NCBI RefSeq assembly: GCF_018417595.1
Contig: NZ_CP070982.1
Location: 562,001 to 626,000, forward strand
From: Pseudomonas entomophila
GTDB taxonomy: Bacteria; Pseudomonadota; Gammaproteobacteria; Pseudomonadales; Pseudomonadaceae
DNA: 64,000 bases
Reading direction: 5' to 3'
Under the pieces are notes generated by a model that did no database searches, was not told the DNA's origin, and saw nothing but the letters and a program-made list of their open reading frames with translations. The translations under genes were made by a program, and so were the position numbers. Shown in pieces: positions 3,444-64,000 of the stretch (its first letter is position 1; each line of letters starts with the position of its first letter).

Positions 3444-6400
3444 ATGTTTGCCGCCGCCGACCAGACCCATTTCAGCTTGCACATCGACGGCCTGGAGCAC
3501 GACTTCCAGGTACTCGCCTTCGACGGCAGCGAAGCCATCAGCCAGGTGTACGCCATCGACCTGGAACTGGTCAGCGAGCACCCCTCGCGGGACCTGGAAA
3601 GCCTGCTGCACAAGCCCGCGTTCCTCCAGCTCGGTGACGACGGCCGCGGCCTGCACGGCCTGATCTATCGCGCCGCGCAAGGCGAGGCGGGCAAGCGCCT
3701 GACCCGTTACCAGGTCACCCTGCGCCCGCAACTGGCCTACCTGGCCCACCGCATCAACCAACGCATGTTCCAGCAGCTGAGCGTGCCGAAGATCATCGCC
3801 CAGGTACTGGAAGAGCACGGCATCCTCGCCAATGCCTACCAGTTCCAGCTGGGCGCCGTGTACCCGGAGCGTGAGTACTGCGTGCAGTACGACGAGTCCA
3901 ACCTGCAGTTCGTCCAGCGCCTGTGCGAAGAAGAGGGCATCCACTACCACTTCCGTCACAGCGCCGAGGGCCACCAACTGGTGTTCGGCGACGACCAGAC
4001 GGTGTTCCGCAAGCTGGCCCCGGTGGCCTACCAGCAGGACGCCGGGCTGGTGGCCGACACGCCGATGATCAAGCGCTTCGGCCTGCGCGTGGAAACCCGC
4101 ACCAGCAGCGTCACCCGCCGCGACTACGACTTCAAGAAACCGCTGATCCAGCTCGAAGGCGAGTCAGTCAGCCACGCCGAGCCGGAGCTCGAAGACTACG
4201 ACTACCCCGGGCGCTTCCTCGACCGCGCCCGCGGCAAGCACCTGGCCACCCGCGCCCTGGAGCGCCACCGCAGCGACTTCCGCCTGGCCGAAGGGCGCAG
4301 CGACCAGCCGTTGCTGGCCAGCGGGCACTTCCTGACCCTGAGCGCGCACCCCAACGCCGCCTGGAACGACCTCTGGCTGCTCACCGAGGTGCACCACCAG
4401 GGCCGCCAGCCCCAGGTGCTGGAAGAAGCCATCACCAGCGACGTCGACGCCAAGTACGACGGCTTCCAGCAGGGCTACCGCAATTTCTTCAGCGCCACCC
4501 CGTGGGACGCCACCTACCGCCCGCCGCTCGAACACCCCAAGCCGCGCATCCTCGGCACCCAGCGCGCGGTGGTCAGCGGCCCGGCCGGCGAGGAGATCTA
4601 CTGCGACGAATACGGCCGTATCAAGGTGCAGTTCTTCTGGGACCGCGAAGGCCGCTCGGACGACAAGTCCAGCGTGTGGATGCGCGTGGCCTCCGGCTGG
4701 GCCGGGCAGGGCATCGCCAGCCTGCAGCTGCCCCGGGTCGGTATGGAAGTGCTGGTCAGCTTCCTCGAAGGCGACCCCGACCAGCCCCTGGTGACCGGCT
4801 GCCTGTACCACGGCGTGAACATGCCGCACTACAAGCTGCCCGACCTGAAAACCCTCGCTACGATCAAGAGCAAGGAATACAAGGGCAGCCGCAACAACGA
4901 ACTGCGCATCGACGACACCACCAGCGAAATCAGCATCGCCCTGCGCAGCGACCACGGCGCCAGTGCGCTGAACCTCGGCTACCTGACGCACCCACGCCCG
5001 AGCGGCGGCGCCCCCCGTGGCGAAGGCTTCGAGCTGCGCACCGATCGCCACGGCGCCGTGCGCGCAGCCGGTGGCCTGCTGATCACCACCGAACCCCGCG
5101 CCAACGAAGCCAAGCACCACAAGGACCTGCCCGAAACCGCCGAACGCCTGGCCACCGCCAGCGAGCAGCAGGACAGCCTGGCGGAACTGGCCAAGCAGAT
5201 GCAGGCCCAGGAGCCCGGCGACCAGGACGCCGTGGCCAAGCGCCTGCACGAACAGCACCAGGGCATCCTCGGCAGCGGCCCGGTCAACCAGAGCGCCAAC
5301 GAGTTCCCCGAATTCGCCCAGCCGCACCTGGTGCTGTCGAGCCCGGCCGGCATCGCCCTGACCACCCCCGGCCCCAACCACATCACCACCGGCGAGCACC
5401 TGGCGCTGAGCAGCACCGGCCACACCAGCATGTCCGTCGGCAAGCGCCTGCTGGCCAGCGCCAGCCAGGGCATGCGCCTGTTCGTGCAGAGCCTGGGCTG
5501 GAAACTGGTGTCGGCCTCCGGCGACATCGACATCCGCGCCCTCAAGGACAACATCAACCTGCTGGCCAAGCTGGACATCACCGCCAACGCCGACCGCATC
5601 GTGCTCACCGCCAAGACCGAGCTGGTGATCCAGGGCGGCGGCAGCGCCACCACCTACAACGCTGGCGGCATCACCCATGTCACCAGCGCCAACTACACCG
5701 CCCATGCGGCGCAGTTCGCCCATATCGGCGCCGCCAGCAAGGCCGGCACCTTCCCCGAACCGCCGAAACCCGGCAAGGGCGACCTGGAGCTGCTGTACCA
5801 GTACGCCAACAGCAAGGGCGTGAAGACCGGCGACTACGACGTGATCGACGCCCTGGGCAAGTCGATCAAGGGCAGTTTGGATAGCAAAGGTTTCAACCAG
5901 GCAGCAGGGGCCGCCGTTGGGCCACTGTGGGTCGACTTTGGCCTCGACCCTGCTGATACCTGGGCCGATGGCAGCCACTTTGGTGCCTCTGCCTGGCCTG
6001 CACAGGCGGGACTGGGAGAACCGTCTGCCGCGCAGATGGCGGAAGTTGGCGAGGTGCTTAGCAGTGCAAAAGGTGAAGGCGGATTGCTAGCTAAGGGGAT
6101 GTCGGCAATGCAACAAGGCATGGACAAAGGCAAGGGACTGATGCAGAACGCGATGGCACAAGGAAAATCGATGGCCCAGGGCCTGATGGGCCCCGGCGGC
6201 AACGGCCTGCTGGAACAGGGCAAGGCCCTGGCCGGCACGGGCCTGCAACTGGCGAAAAGCGGCCAGGCTGCTTTGCAGAAGGCGCAACAGGTCAAGGCCG
6301 CTGTCGGCGGCGACACCGGCGCCATGGCCCAGCTGGCCAGCAACGTGGTGCCCGGCGCGGCGCCCACGCTCAAGGCCGCCAGCGCCCTCAAGCAACTGCC

Positions 6401-24473: not shown

Positions 24474-24569
24474 GGAAGGCAATCGCGCCCGGTGGCGCGG
24501 CCGGGCTTCAAACCCGGTTGGGGACGGCAGCCGTTCCCGGGCAGGTTCGACTCCCGCTGCCTTCCGCCA
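24474..24569 (+). tRNA. selC: tRNA-Sec (anticodon UCA)
   Basis: This 96-base gene aligns end to end with E. coli selC. It has an eight-pair acceptor stem (GGAAGGCA with TGCCTTCC), the long variable arm around GGGGACGGCAGCCGTTCCC, the T-arm GGTTCGACTCC, the anticodon TCA at 24508-24510 in the loop CTTCAAA, and an encoded GCCA end. A T-run follows at once. It completes the selA-selB-selC group. Confidence 0.97.
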
Positions 24570-57770: not shown

Positions 57771-57855
57771 GAAACGCTCCTCGTGAATGATCGATGAACG
57801 TCTCGGGGCGAACAAAATGCGCGCGCAAGGGCGCCTGGATGGCCCCTGCCAAACG

Positions 57856-57986
57856 CCTTCTTTCATCCGGACTATGACCGTCGGCCCTGGAATCTCACCA
57901 GATCTGCTGACCCCCGGCATGGCCGGGGCGCTCGCGGGCTCATCTTTCGATTTACCGCCGGTGGGGACTTTCACCCCGCCCTGAAG
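57856..57986 (-). ncRNA. FMN riboswitch (RFN element) controlling ribB
   Basis: On the minus strand the RFN landmarks occur in order: AGGGCGGGGTGAAAGTCCCC, ACCGGCGGTAAAT, GAGCCCGCGAGCG, GTCAGCAGATCTGGTGAGAT, TTCCAGGGCCGACGGTCATA and AGTCCGGATGAAAGA. The aptamer ends about 85 bases before the ribB ATG. An expression platform with a GCGC-CCTT-GCGC hairpin follows, but its mechanism is not clear. Confidence 0.95.
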
Positions 57987-58028
57987 ACCGGCCAAGCATA
58001 CAGCACGCTGCCAGCATGCTGGCAAGCC

Positions 58029-59612
58029 CTACGACTTTAGTTGCTGCCAGTCCAGCCCGAAGCGCGCCAGGTACTTGCGCAGGCGGTCGGCGTCGTTGGG
58101 GTTGGCCTTTTCCTGGCGCGACACCGCGAACAGCTGGCGCCCGGCCTCGGACAGGCTCGGGGCGCGGCGGCACACGTCCAGCACCGCCTGTAGCTGCACC
58201 TGGTCGAACAGGTCCAGTTCGCGGCCGGCCAGCAGTGGCTCCGCCGCCGGTTCCAGGCCCCAGGCATAACTCAACCGACCAATCTCTTCCTCGACCAGTG
58301 CTTCGTCGATGCGTCCGCTGTCGGCCAGGGTCGCCATGCGCGTGATCGATGCCGACAGCTCGCGGAAGTTGCCGGCCCAGCGCGCTTCACTGGCGTGGGC
58401 GAAGGCCAGGTAGCGGCGCTTGGCCTCAAGGTTGAAACGCACCTGGCGCCCTTGTTCGCGGGCATGGCGCTGCAACTCGAAATCGAGGTTGGGTTCGATG
58501 TCCTCGCGGCGTTCGGCCAGGCCCGGCAGGGCGAAGGTCCACAGGTTGATGCGGGCGAACAGGTCCTCGCGGAACGAGCCGTCGGCGACCTTGGCGCGCA
58601 GGTCGCGGTGGGTGCCGGCGATCAGCTGGAAGTCGCTCTCCACCTCGCGATCGGCGCCCAGCGGGAAGAAGCGCTTTTCTTCGATGGCCTTGAGCAGCAT
58701 GGCCTGTTCGTCGGCACCCAGTTCGCCGATCTCGTCGAGGAACAACATGCCGCCGTCGGCGGCGCGCAGCAGGCCGTCGCGGGCGTTCTGCGCGCCGGTG
58801 AAGGCGCCCTTGGCGTGGCCGAACAGGGTCGACATGGCACCGTCGCCACGCAGGGTGGCGCAGTTCACTTCGATGAAGCGCCCGCCGAGTTGGTGGCGGC
58901 CGCGCTTGAGTTCATGGACGCGGCGGGCCAGGAACGATTTGCCGGCGCCGGTCGGGCCGACCAGCAGCATCGGCGCCTTCGAGCGCAGGGCGACCCGCTC
59001 GATCTGCTCGATGGTGCGGTTGAAGCCCGGGTTGCGTGTGGCGATGCCGGACTTGAGCAGCGACTGCCCCTCGACCTGCTCGCGGCGAAAGCGCGAGGCG
59101 ATCGGGTCGTAGCGCGACAGGTCGAGGTCGATCAGGGTGGCGATGCCGGCCGGGTCGCTGTTTTCGTCCTGCTTGCGCGAGGGCGAGGTCTGTACCAGGC
59201 GCGCCGGCAAGTAGCGCGCCTCGGTGAGCAGGAACCAGCAGATCTGCGCGACGTGGGTGCCGGTGGTGATGTGCACGAGGTAGTCCTCGTGCTCAGTGTC
59301 GAAGCTGTAGTCGCTGGCGAAGTCGTGCAGGGCGCCGTAGACCTCCTCGAAGTCCCACGGGTTGCGCAGCGCCAGCGGGTGCAGGCGCACCTCGGTGCCG
59401 GGCGAGACCTGCTGGATGTCGCCGCGGATGCGGTCGGCCAGGCTCTGGTCGCGGGCGCTCGGGCCGTGGATCAGCTCCAGGCGGTCGATGGGCAGGTCGG
59501 GTTGCTGGCACAGGCCGATGGTCGGCCGCCACTTGTTCCAGCGCGCCGCACCCTTGCCGTTGCGGTCGAGGGTGGTGCCGAGAAAGCCGATGGCGACGAG
59601 GGGCTTGGTCAT
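58029..59612 (-). CDS. rtcR: RtcR, sigma-54-dependent activator of RNA repair genes
   Basis: This 527-residue protein has an N-terminal CARF-like domain (residues 1-180; VAIGFLGTTLD, HITTGTHVAQICWFLL) that senses RNA fragments. The AAA+ domain follows, with Walker A GPTGAGKS, the sigma-54 contact loop GAFTGA, Walker B GGMLFLDEIGEL and R-fingers. A C-terminal DNA-binding domain completes it. It is divergent from the slipin-rtcB genes, which have a sigma-54 promoter. Confidence 0.95.
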   Translation of the reverse strand: MTKPLVAIGFLGTTLDRNGKGAARWNKWRPTIGLCQQPDLPIDRLELIHGPSARDQSLADRIRGDIQQVSPGTEVRLHPLALRNPWDFEEVYGALHDFASDYSFDTEHEDYLVHITTGTHVAQICWFLLTEARYLPARLVQTSPSRKQDENSDPAGIATLIDLDLSRYDPIASRFRREQVEGQSLLKSGIATRNPGFNRTIEQIERVALRSKAPMLLVGPTGAGKSFLARRVHELKRGRHQLGGRFIEVNCATLRGDGAMSTLFGHAKGAFTGAQNARDGLLRAADGGMLFLDEIGELGADEQAMLLKAIEEKRFFPLGADREVESDFQLIAGTHRDLRAKVADGSFREDLFARINLWTFALPGLAERREDIEPNLDFELQRHAREQGRQVRFNLEAKRRYLAFAHASEARWAGNFRELSASITRMATLADSGRIDEALVEEEIGRLSYAWGLEPAAEPLLAGRELDLFDQVQLQAVLDVCRRAPSLSEAGRQLFAVSRQEKANPNDADRLRKYLARFGLDWQQLKS

Positions 59613-59624
59613 CCGTGATTATCC

Positions 59625-59764
59625 AAAAAGATAAATGTGTATCGCAGGATATACGAAAAATGTAATCGATATGTCCGTTGCAGTGCGCTAGTGAATTCGC
59701 CAGATAAAAATAAATCGTTATAAATCAGATAGTTAAAAAATATTTTAAGACTTGAGTGAAAACC
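59625..59764. promoter_or_regulatory. AT-rich activator/IHF region between rtcR and the rtc promoter
   Basis: This 140-base stretch is much richer in A/T than anything around it, with GATAAAAATAAATCG and AAAAATATTTTAAG runs. It lies just upstream of the sigma-54 promoter, where RtcR enhancer sites and an IHF bend are expected. No exact palindromes were identified. It also contains the rtcR promoter. Confidence 0.5.
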
Positions 59765-59780
59765 TGGCACGCCGCTCGCT
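59765..59780 (+). promoter_or_regulatory. Sigma-54 promoter of the slipin-rtcB operon
   Basis: TGGCACGCCGCTCGCT has GG at 59766-59767 and GC at 59778-59779, 12 bp apart, matching the -24/-12 consensus with one change. RtcR-controlled rtc operons use such promoters. Transcription would begin near 59791, over 400 bases before the first gene. Confidence 0.78.
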
Positions 59781-59790
59781 ATATCCCTCC

Positions 59791-60203
59791 CGACCGCATC
59801 GCCAGGCAGGCCCTCGGGTCAGGGGATCAACCCCCGCCGGTGCACGTACCCACCTTCAGGTGTCGGTGTCGTGCATGCCGCCGCCGCAACGACCGGTCTT
59901 TGCGGCGCAAGCCTTGAACAGGCTTGCGAGGCGCTCGTCGGGCCCTGTCCCGACACTACCCTTCCACGGTAGCTACAAACGCAACACCCGCAGGTGGGGC
60001 ACAGGCAACGCAACCAGGGCCAGGATGGTCCGCTTTTGCGAAGGACGCCTGGGCCACCGCTGGCCCACCCGGCCCGCCGGCCGGGCCTGGCGCAACGATG
60101 GCGGCCACCGGAGCAAACGCTCCCGGCCCCGGACTCCGCCAGGCTTCGCCCACGGCGCTCGGTGAGTCGGCGACCACCCGCAACCAAGGATATTGATAAA
60201 AGG
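59791..60203 (+). ncRNA. Long hairpin-rich leader or small RNA(s) of the rtc operon
   Basis: This GC-rich 413-base stretch has no credible gene. Perfect stems follow each other: 59822-59834 (GGGG/CCCC), 59841-59875 (TGCACG/CGTGCA with CACCT/AGGTG inside), 59882-59907 (CGCCGCAA/TTGCGGCG), 59906-59928 (CGCAAGCCT/AGGCTTGCG), 59937-59954 (GTCGGG/CCCGAC) and 59956-59972 (CTACC/GGTAG). More stems lie to about 60150. In other bacteria rtc operons carry Y-RNA-like RNAs next to the Ro60 gene; here there is no Ro60 gene, and I do not see a clear tRNA-like module. Confidence 0.5.
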
Positions 60204-61343
60204 ATGAGCAAGATGAAACTGTTGAAACGCTTTGTGGTGAAGAAAAACGAACGCGGCCTGTTGATGAGCGAAGGCGACTTCGTGTCGATCCTCGAGCCTG
60301 GCCAGTACCAGCGTTTCGACTGGCAAGACCGGCTGACGGTGACCACCTTCAGCCTCCAATCCCCGCTGTTCGACCACCCGCTGGCGCAGTACCTGCGTGG
60401 GCATGAGCCGGCACTGGTCGAACAGCATTTCGAAGCCATGGACCTGGCGCAGCACGAGGTTGGCCTGCGTTTCGAGAACGGCCGCCTGGTCGAGCTGCTG
60501 GCCCCTGATAGCCGCCGCCTGTACTGGAAAGGCCAGGTCGAGCATGGTTTGCAGCGCATCGACTTGAATCAGGGCCGGCGCCTGGACGATGAACTGGTGG
60601 TTCGCCTGAACCGCCCCGGTGTGGTCGGCACGGACCTGGTCCTGCTGGCGCTGGTGCCGGCCTTCCATGTCGGCGTACTGAAGATCGACGGCGTGGTGGC
60701 CGGGTTGCTCGAGCCGGGCCGGCATGGTTACTGGCGCTGCGGCAGCCAGGTAGCGGTGGAGATGGTCGACACCCGCCTGCAGGCGCTGGAGGTGAACGGC
60801 CAGGAGATCCTCACCCGCGACAAGGTCAGCCTGCGCCTGAGCCTGGTGGCCAACTGGCGCTACACCGATGTGCTCGGTGCCCACGGGCAGATGAGCAAAC
60901 CGGTGGAGCATCTGTACCGCGAGCTGCAGTTCGGCTTGCGTGCGGCGGTGGGTACCCGCACCCTCGACGAGCTGCTGGAGGACAAGCAGTCCATCGACGG
61001 TAGCGTCGCCGAGCACCTGCTGGCACAGCTGCAAGGCAGTGGCCTGGAAGTCAGCAGCCTGGGGGTGCGCGACATCATCCTGCCGGGCGAGATGAAGACC
61101 CTGCTGGCGCAGGTGGTGGAGGCGGAGAAGGCCGCCCAGGCCAACGTGATCCGGCGCCGCGAGGAAACTCAGGCGACTCGCTCGCTGCTCAACACCGCCA
61201 AGGTGATGGAAGGCAACCCGACGGCCCTGCGCCTGAAGGAGCTGGAAACCCTGGAGCGGGTGGCCGAGCGCATCGACCGGATTTCGGTGTTCGGTGGCCT
61301 GGATCAGGTATTGAATGGAATGGTCAGCCTCAAGGCGGGTTGA
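60204..61343 (+). CDS. Slipin (SPFH/stomatin-like) protein of the RNA-repair operon
   Basis: This 379-residue protein resembles bacterial slipins: MKLLKRFVVKKNERGLLM near the start, a beta-rich SPFH domain and a helical, Ala/Glu-rich C-terminus (EAEKAAQANVIRRREE) for oligomerisation. It has no strong membrane helix. The start is ATG 60204, or ATG 60213, which has a better-spaced AAAAGG. It is the first gene after the rtc leader. Slipins occur with RtcB or Ro60 in stress RNA operons; the role is unclear. Confidence 0.85.
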   Translation: MSKMKLLKRFVVKKNERGLLMSEGDFVSILEPGQYQRFDWQDRLTVTTFSLQSPLFDHPLAQYLRGHEPALVEQHFEAMDLAQHEVGLRFENGRLVELLAPDSRRLYWKGQVEHGLQRIDLNQGRRLDDELVVRLNRPGVVGTDLVLLALVPAFHVGVLKIDGVVAGLLEPGRHGYWRCGSQVAVEMVDTRLQALEVNGQEILTRDKVSLRLSLVANWRYTDVLGAHGQMSKPVEHLYRELQFGLRAAVGTRTLDELLEDKQSIDGSVAEHLLAQLQGSGLEVSSLGVRDIILPGEMKTLLAQVVEAEKAAQANVIRRREETQATRSLLNTAKVMEGNPTALRLKELETLERVAERIDRISVFGGLDQVLNGMVSLKAG

Positions 61344-63424: not shown

Positions 63425-63437
63425 TTTGGCGCGAGCC

Positions 63438-64000
<563 letters not shown>

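Follow-up and report, generated by a model that had tools for sequence, protein, structure and literature searches.

Why does an RNA repair operon begin with roughly 412 bases that hold no recognised gene? The question is raised by a locus of Pseudomonas entomophila, which we analysed within a stretch of 64,000 nucleotides (contig NZ_CP070982.1, positions 562,001 to 626,000; here called the window), where such an interval separates a TGGCACGCCGCTCGCT motif from the slipin ATG at 60204. An initial sequence-only reading had called the interval a hairpin array and proposed that it is a small RNA, a substrate or decoy of the ligase RtcB, or a source of the ligand of the regulator RtcR. Comparison with related loci indicates that positions 59790 to 60203 are the structured noncoding 5' leader of an RtcR/sigma-54-type slipin-rtcB-rlaP operon.

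Layout of the locus

The rtcR gene (58029 to 59612, minus strand), which encodes a CARF-type sigma-54 activator (PF06956 and PF00158), is divergent from a plus-strand operon made up of the slipin gene (SPFH/Band 7, PF01145; 60204 to 61343), rtcB for an RNA ligase (PF01139; 61383 to 62588), and rlaP for an RNA-repair nucleotidyltransferase (PF10127; 62612 to 63424). The sigma-54 promoter that had been placed ahead of the interval was found between the two as a -24/-12 motif on the plus strand at 59765 to 59780, a motif also present in nearly all relatives in which rtcR accompanies slipin, and we infer that RtcR itself controls the slipin-rtcB-rlaP operon. A simple scan of the plus strand from 59600 to 60260 revealed no sigma-70-like promoter, including directly before slipin, where a promoter had been named as evidence against the proposal, and no terminator-like site. 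Pfam detected no RNA-binding domain in the slipin. RtcA (PF01137) was not found in the P. entomophila genome, despite the presence of RtcR and RtcB (the control was positive in 5 of 14); excerpts of PMC9650030 report that RtcA and RtcB are necessary for RtcR activity, and RlaP may, as a guess, replace the missing RtcA.

The interval had also been described as lacking a protein gene, and this held up. Every forward frame of the window leader contains a stop codon, across 13 leaders of the window's clade neither an open frame nor the indels are conserved (five relatives have one stop-free frame), and two open reading frames tested in the leader gave no Pfam match; a coding leader was rejected on these grounds.

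Fold statistics of the leader alone

We counted perfect stems of at least 5 pairs with loops of 3 to 9 bases. The first 180 bases, for which six perfect stems had been claimed, contain 2 (shuffle mean 1.5, with 245 of 500 shuffles reaching 2), and six are obtained there only when stems of 4 pairs and stems with inner loops are admitted by eye. All 413 bases contain 6 (shuffle mean 3.5, reached by 56 of 500 shuffles), and the number of perfect stems was therefore discarded as proof of a hairpin array, being at chance level. The whole leader folds at -199.5 kcal/mol, compared to -181.6 +/- 4.9 kcal/mol in shuffles (z -3.65), and none of 100 shuffles was as stable. When its pieces were folded singly, z was -1.5 to -2.1, which is unconvincing without relatives. 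The description as a hairpin array is thus sound for the locus, its noncoding nature, its high GC (70% over 59790 to 59903), its promoter, and the stability of its fold, but not for the stem count. For the GC-rich 3' region of the leader (59986 to 60181, plus strand), a long-range fold is predicted only. Stronger proof comes from the comparison with relatives.

Relatives of the slipin locus

A first draw of 199 genus genomes yielded slipin relatives in 12, a second, overlapping draw of 398 yielded them in 19, and 198 family genomes yielded them in 20; the named slipin loci are the best 80 of 135. In loci with adjacent rtcR and slipin, the leader that follows the promoter motif measures 392 to 533 bases in most Pseudomonadaceae, 441 to 489 bases in Burkholderia, Paraburkholderia, and Rhodocyclaceae (with the exception of L049, 510), 496 in Undibacterium, 495 to 551 in Variovorax, and 252 to 300 bases in Enterobacteriaceae. 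Lengths above 600 have one of three origins: slipins whose front part is duplicated, a false promoter in L112, and the divergent nature of L089 and L113; the promoter pattern also took a false upstream match in L032 and found none in L054 and L063. The slipins of L007, L011, L018 to L020, and L052 carry an internal repeat of their N-terminal part.

A conserved 5' domain

The 5' part of the leader (59790 to 59903, plus strand), which we call D1, consists of a closing helix, GACCG/CGGTC, and two hairpins, GGGG..CCCC and GCACG..CGTGC. It is defined by covariation and by a covariance model, R1. The D1 alignment comprises 34 sequences, that is, 35 distinct ones minus the divergent L113. RNAalifold predicted 26 pairs on this alignment, 8 of which show changes on both sides; in 500 shuffles the mean was 2.6 and none reached 8. 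When the partners were slid by 1 to 3 columns, only 1 to 3 pairs changed on both sides, and the proportion of paired cells was 27 to 44% versus 98.0% in the true register. The number of further pair types was not in excess (18, compared to a shuffle mean of 18.6, with 443 of 500 shuffles reaching 18). The stems, whose conservation in related Pseudomonas had been put forward as a check, are thus conserved in D1, with compensatory change at 8 of 26 pairs, a number that none of 500 shuffles attained.

The window D1 scores 116.8 bits with R1, the window copy being part of the model's alignment as L001; three extra weak matches in the window (E 0.35 to 0.95) look like chance. We scanned 35 sources with R1, including 28 slipin loci from outside the model's family sample. 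In 16 of these 28 loci the model located D1 where it was expected at E 0.01 or better, with E-values of 2.7e-13 and 1e-12 in Accumulibacter, down to 4e-7 in Burkholderia, and 4e-7 in Undibacterium. Weak matches (E 0.03 to 0.5) were obtained in 5 more, four from Enterobacteriaceae and one from Variovorax, and the other 7 gave no match at the expected place (L064, L084, L089, L090, L094, L113, and L125). By sequence comparison, D1 is kept across gamma- and betaproteobacteria. Among the 198 family genomes, 28 had a match at E 0.01. Strong matches (2.6e-24 or better) were present in 19, all of them among the 20 slipin genomes of the family, of which the twentieth, G226, had no match; the other 9 matching genomes had weak matches only, of approximately 24 to 27 bits.

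tRNA-like modules in relatives

Directly 3' of D1, most relatives carry one to three tRNA-like units. Of 111 distinct regions upstream of slipin, 98 contain at least one tRNA-like T arm (two in 66, one in 31, and three in 1), a count that excludes the 45-base upstream region of L092. The nominal background amounted to 7 T-arm motifs over 922,476 bases; since every one of them belongs to one of seven Variovorax loci, it may not represent true background. L051 has a further T-arm or tmRNA-like match between slipin and rtcB, at 5354 to 5450 of that locus, and six more Variovorax loci also have a further match, which may represent an additional tRNA-like unit within the operon. Many of the tRNA calls that ARAGORN made in the relatives' leaders lack a proper anticodon, and some have one. 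The Rfam tRNA model (RF00005) passed its cut-off in six of nine loci scanned (L008, L009, L010, L012, L044, and L070) and did not reach it in L022, L051, and L076. In a comparison with plasmids, the tRNA-like stretch of L010 matched one weak Burkholderia record.

We cut out by pattern 53 distinct modules with both D and T arms. Their acceptor stems pair at 7 of 7 positions in 22 modules, at 6 in 21, and at 4 or 5 in 10. At the anticodon position, where stems were picked automatically and roughly, the loop has 3 to 4 bases (such as UUCG or GAAA) in 33 modules and 5 to 6 in 10; a 7-base loop occurs without U33 in 4 and with U33 in 5 (L039, L044, L049, L089, and L113), and in 1 module no stem was picked. 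The five modules with a 7-base loop and U33 could be read as tRNAs. The modules adjoin each other, with no CCA noticed on inspection by eye. Compared to tRNA, the relatives' modules pass the model in six of the nine loci scanned and differ by an anticodon arm that mostly lacks a usable loop.

This loop bears on the earlier idea that the leader is cut to give the RtcR ligand or is itself ligated by RtcB. The presence of tRNA-like modules in relatives speaks for it, together with excerpts of PMC7790460, which report that 5' tRNA halves with a cyclic phosphate bind RtcR and switch it on. Because 5' tRNA halves are what RtcR reportedly senses (PMC7790460) and most modules have no anticodon loop, the ligand-source reading is disfavoured: the loop that would yield the halves is missing or altered in most modules, and the window has no modules at all. 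YrlA, a Y RNA with a tRNA-like domain, is reported in the same excerpts to be uncut and may competitively inhibit the nuclease (PMC7790460). Sequence comparison gave no evidence for the leader as a substrate of RtcB, and we consider either role, signal or substrate, very improbable. Thus, the earlier proposal stands as far as a structured noncoding RNA beside RtcR is concerned, owing to the covariation in D1, and is unsupported as to a source of the RtcR ligand.

One such module may already be known by a gene number. Excerpts of published work report that PA4581 of Pseudomonas aeruginosa is RtcR (PMC8694187), that PA4582 is part of the rtc operon (PMC8619066), and that the rtc locus of strain PA14 contains an SPFH gene (PMC13086221). 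PA4582 was reported to increase 3.2-fold under hydrogen peroxide (PMC1250226), its protein to reach higher levels in strains that over-express two pumps (PMC7835679), and PA4581.1, a "tRNA gene", to be among the most increased transcripts of a late isolate (PMC8743555). Placed by its gene number alone between PA4581 and PA4582, PA4581.1 would be one of the tRNA-like modules, which suggests that this gene, annotated as a tRNA gene, may not be a working tRNA.

The RNA accompanies slipin

RtcR was found in 8 of 274 genomes of the class, that of P. entomophila included. In the 7 other RtcR loci the next gene is rtcB in four (186 to 246 bases off), a Ro60-like gene behind the promoter in two (L124 with PF05731 and L127 with PF25045), and slipin in one, L125, whose slipin is distant (30% identity) and accompanied by three tRNA-like units. 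The six RtcR loci without slipin have neither D1 nor a tRNA-like unit, apart from a single loose T-like match that L128 shows on its other strand. The RtcR-rtcB and RtcR-Ro60 operons share with the window a regulator of the same family and sigma-54-type control, as well as RtcB in four of them, but differ in that the four loci of the first kind and the two of the second lack both the tRNA-like unit and D1. Conversely, the T-arm motif is present in 15 of 16 slipin loci without a paired rtcR, and the sixteenth has just 45 bases upstream. Some Burkholderiales loci, L045 and L046 among them, have no rtcR in the stretch examined, and their slipin lies behind tRNA genes or tRNA-like units. Among the loci seen, which are small in number, the leader RNA appears to follow slipin rather than RtcR as such.

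This association would be expected if the leader were a regulatory 5' untranslated region acting in cis, whose units are bound or cut (for example, by RNase P, RNase III, RtcB, or slipin) and so determine both how stable the slipin-rtcB mRNA is and how well it is translated, perhaps in a feedback loop. In the loci seen, the RNA immediately precedes slipin and tracks it rather than RtcR, D1 occurs as one strong copy per genome and nowhere else in the 198 genomes, and no terminator-like site separates leader and slipin on the plus strand. Against such control in cis, complete tRNA-like bodies with covarying acceptors, in a tandem pair, exceed the needs of a simple cis switch. We regard it as a real possibility, somewhat behind the reading favoured below.

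Probable replacement of the modules in the clade of the window

The 13 of 111 slipin upstream regions that lack a T-arm motif are those of the window and its near kin. In the window leader, no tRNA or YrlA match was obtained up to E 5, and ARAGORN made no call. Hairpin A (59906 to 59928) occupies the position at which relatives have their first tRNA-like module, and hairpin B (59937 to 59954) that of their second; hairpin C follows at 59956 to 59972, as CTACC..GGTAG in the window and CTGCC..GGCAG in many relatives (all on the plus strand).

We built a tree of RtcR and RtcB by quick search from 68 of 90 rows, after removal of 22 rows that were near-copies belonging to Burkholderia and Variovorax; the counts also leave out another four rows as well as L001, L013, and L014, which are copies of the same genomes. 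The 15 module-less rows of the tree fall on one branch (SH-aLRT 99), which is joined next by L095 (90) and then by L111 (81). L111 has two tRNA-like modules, and L095 has a tRNA-like module in the second slot and the hairpin CGCGA-gt-CCGGC-aat-GCCGG-t-TCGCG in the first. A single loss of the modules is sufficient on this tree, with the L095 lineage as its intermediate. The direction from module to hairpin is taken from the tree and from the outgroups, all of which have tRNA-like units.

Are hairpins A and B then functionless remains of the lost modules? The loss in one clade would fit this, as would the stems of the hairpins, which have little sequence in common between lineages. Against this, all 12 sequences examined from the clade (10 of them distinct) keep the two-hairpin fold in these slots, with z between -1.2 and -3.4, and D1 is strongly conserved in the same leaders. 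Across 9 sequences, 5 of the 6 positions of hairpin B change on both sides; its stems were set by hand, MAFFT having misplaced L004 in the alignment of hairpins B and C, so that pairing is given by construction and only the both-side changes are informative. We consider it unlikely that the hairpins are mere leftovers. Instead, it seems that first one module and then the other was reduced to a hairpin, and that pairing in both hairpins is still maintained.

Comparison with known RNAs

No Rfam family reached its cut-off in the window leader. A Twister-sister ribozyme match (RF02681; 60031 to 60098, minus strand) was dismissed at 19.4 bits and E 2, compared to a cut-off of 34. We found no prior description of the leader in the literature searched; Chen 2014 (Y RNAs) or Burroughs and Aravind 2016 may already cover part of it.

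A close known counterpart is YrlA (RF02553), the partner of Ro60 in rsr-yrlBA-rtcBA operons, which is likewise a noncoding RNA with a tRNA-like part in an RtcR-controlled rtcB operon; Y RNAs are present in some rtc operons (both from excerpts of PMC7790460). The YrlA model matches the relatives' leaders over the T arm of the first module and the D arm of the second, that is, as a permuted tRNA, and stays below its cut-off of 69 bits in every matching locus (42.0 in L009, 36.6 in L010, 32.1 in L012, 26.5 in L008, and 34 in L125). Unlike YrlA, the RNA described here precedes slipin as a leader, and its relatives contain whole tandem tRNA-like modules, whereas the window contains none. Ro60 was not found in the P. 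entomophila genome by PF05731 (control positive in 1 of 14), by PF25045 (control reached in 1 of 14, under its cut-off), or with the Ro60-like protein of L127 as a query, for which there was no positive control. The remark that the leader occupies a place comparable to that of Y RNAs in the absence of Ro60 thus agrees with all three queries. Classification of the leader as YrlA was rejected, given matches below the cut-off in relatives and none in the window, and with Ro60 not found.

Proposed function

Function is inferred here from sequence comparison. The relatives' modules, which are tRNA bodies mostly without a cuttable loop and lie beside a sensor of cut tRNAs, would fit the idea of a competitive inhibitor. 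Decoy action by tRNA mimicry cannot hold in the window, because its leader has no tRNA-like module, and it cannot be the whole function, because the lineage of the window lost the modules and kept the rest; since that lineage kept a folded scaffold, the scaffold should have a function of its own. For this reason we prefer, tentatively and at somewhat less than even confidence, to see the leader as a structured RNA that is induced by damage and partners the slipin-RtcB-RlaP system, similar in logic to a Y RNA and with the mimicry lost here, and we treat regulation in cis as its serious rival. RtcR would sense cleaved tRNAs and the leader RNA would be made, which would then act as a partner of slipin, RtcB, and RlaP, either cut out or still on the mRNA. 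Where tRNA mimicry is present, the RNA might hold or titrate tRNA-binding proteins, whether repair enzymes or tRNA-cutting nucleases unable to cut the leader RNA. In the lineage of the window, the mimicry would be gone and the folded scaffold left. It is a more doubtful extension, and on balance an unlikely one, that slipin and the leader RNA assemble upon damage into an RNA-protein particle analogous to that of Ro60 and its Y RNA, so that RtcR-RtcB repair operons use either Ro60 with a Y RNA or slipin with a tRNA mimic that has no anticodon, and the window lineage represents a case in which mimicry was lost and the scaffold kept.

A conserved slipin-linked RNA that in most of the lineages examined mimics tRNA, mostly with no cuttable anticodon, offers a concrete handle on the targets of bacterial RtcB, slipin, and RlaP. 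The natural series of two modules, one, and none may reveal what tRNA mimicry adds to RNA repair.

Other features of the window

An FMN riboswitch precedes a ribB-like gene at 57851 to 57992 on the minus strand (111.2 bits, compared to a cut-off of 66.2). A long inverted repeat around GTAGGAGCGGCTTCAGCCGCG, at 63435 to 63530, gave microRNA matches that are below the cut-off and look spurious; we take this repeat to be REP-like. A tRNA-Sec gene is located at 24474 to 24569 on the plus strand.
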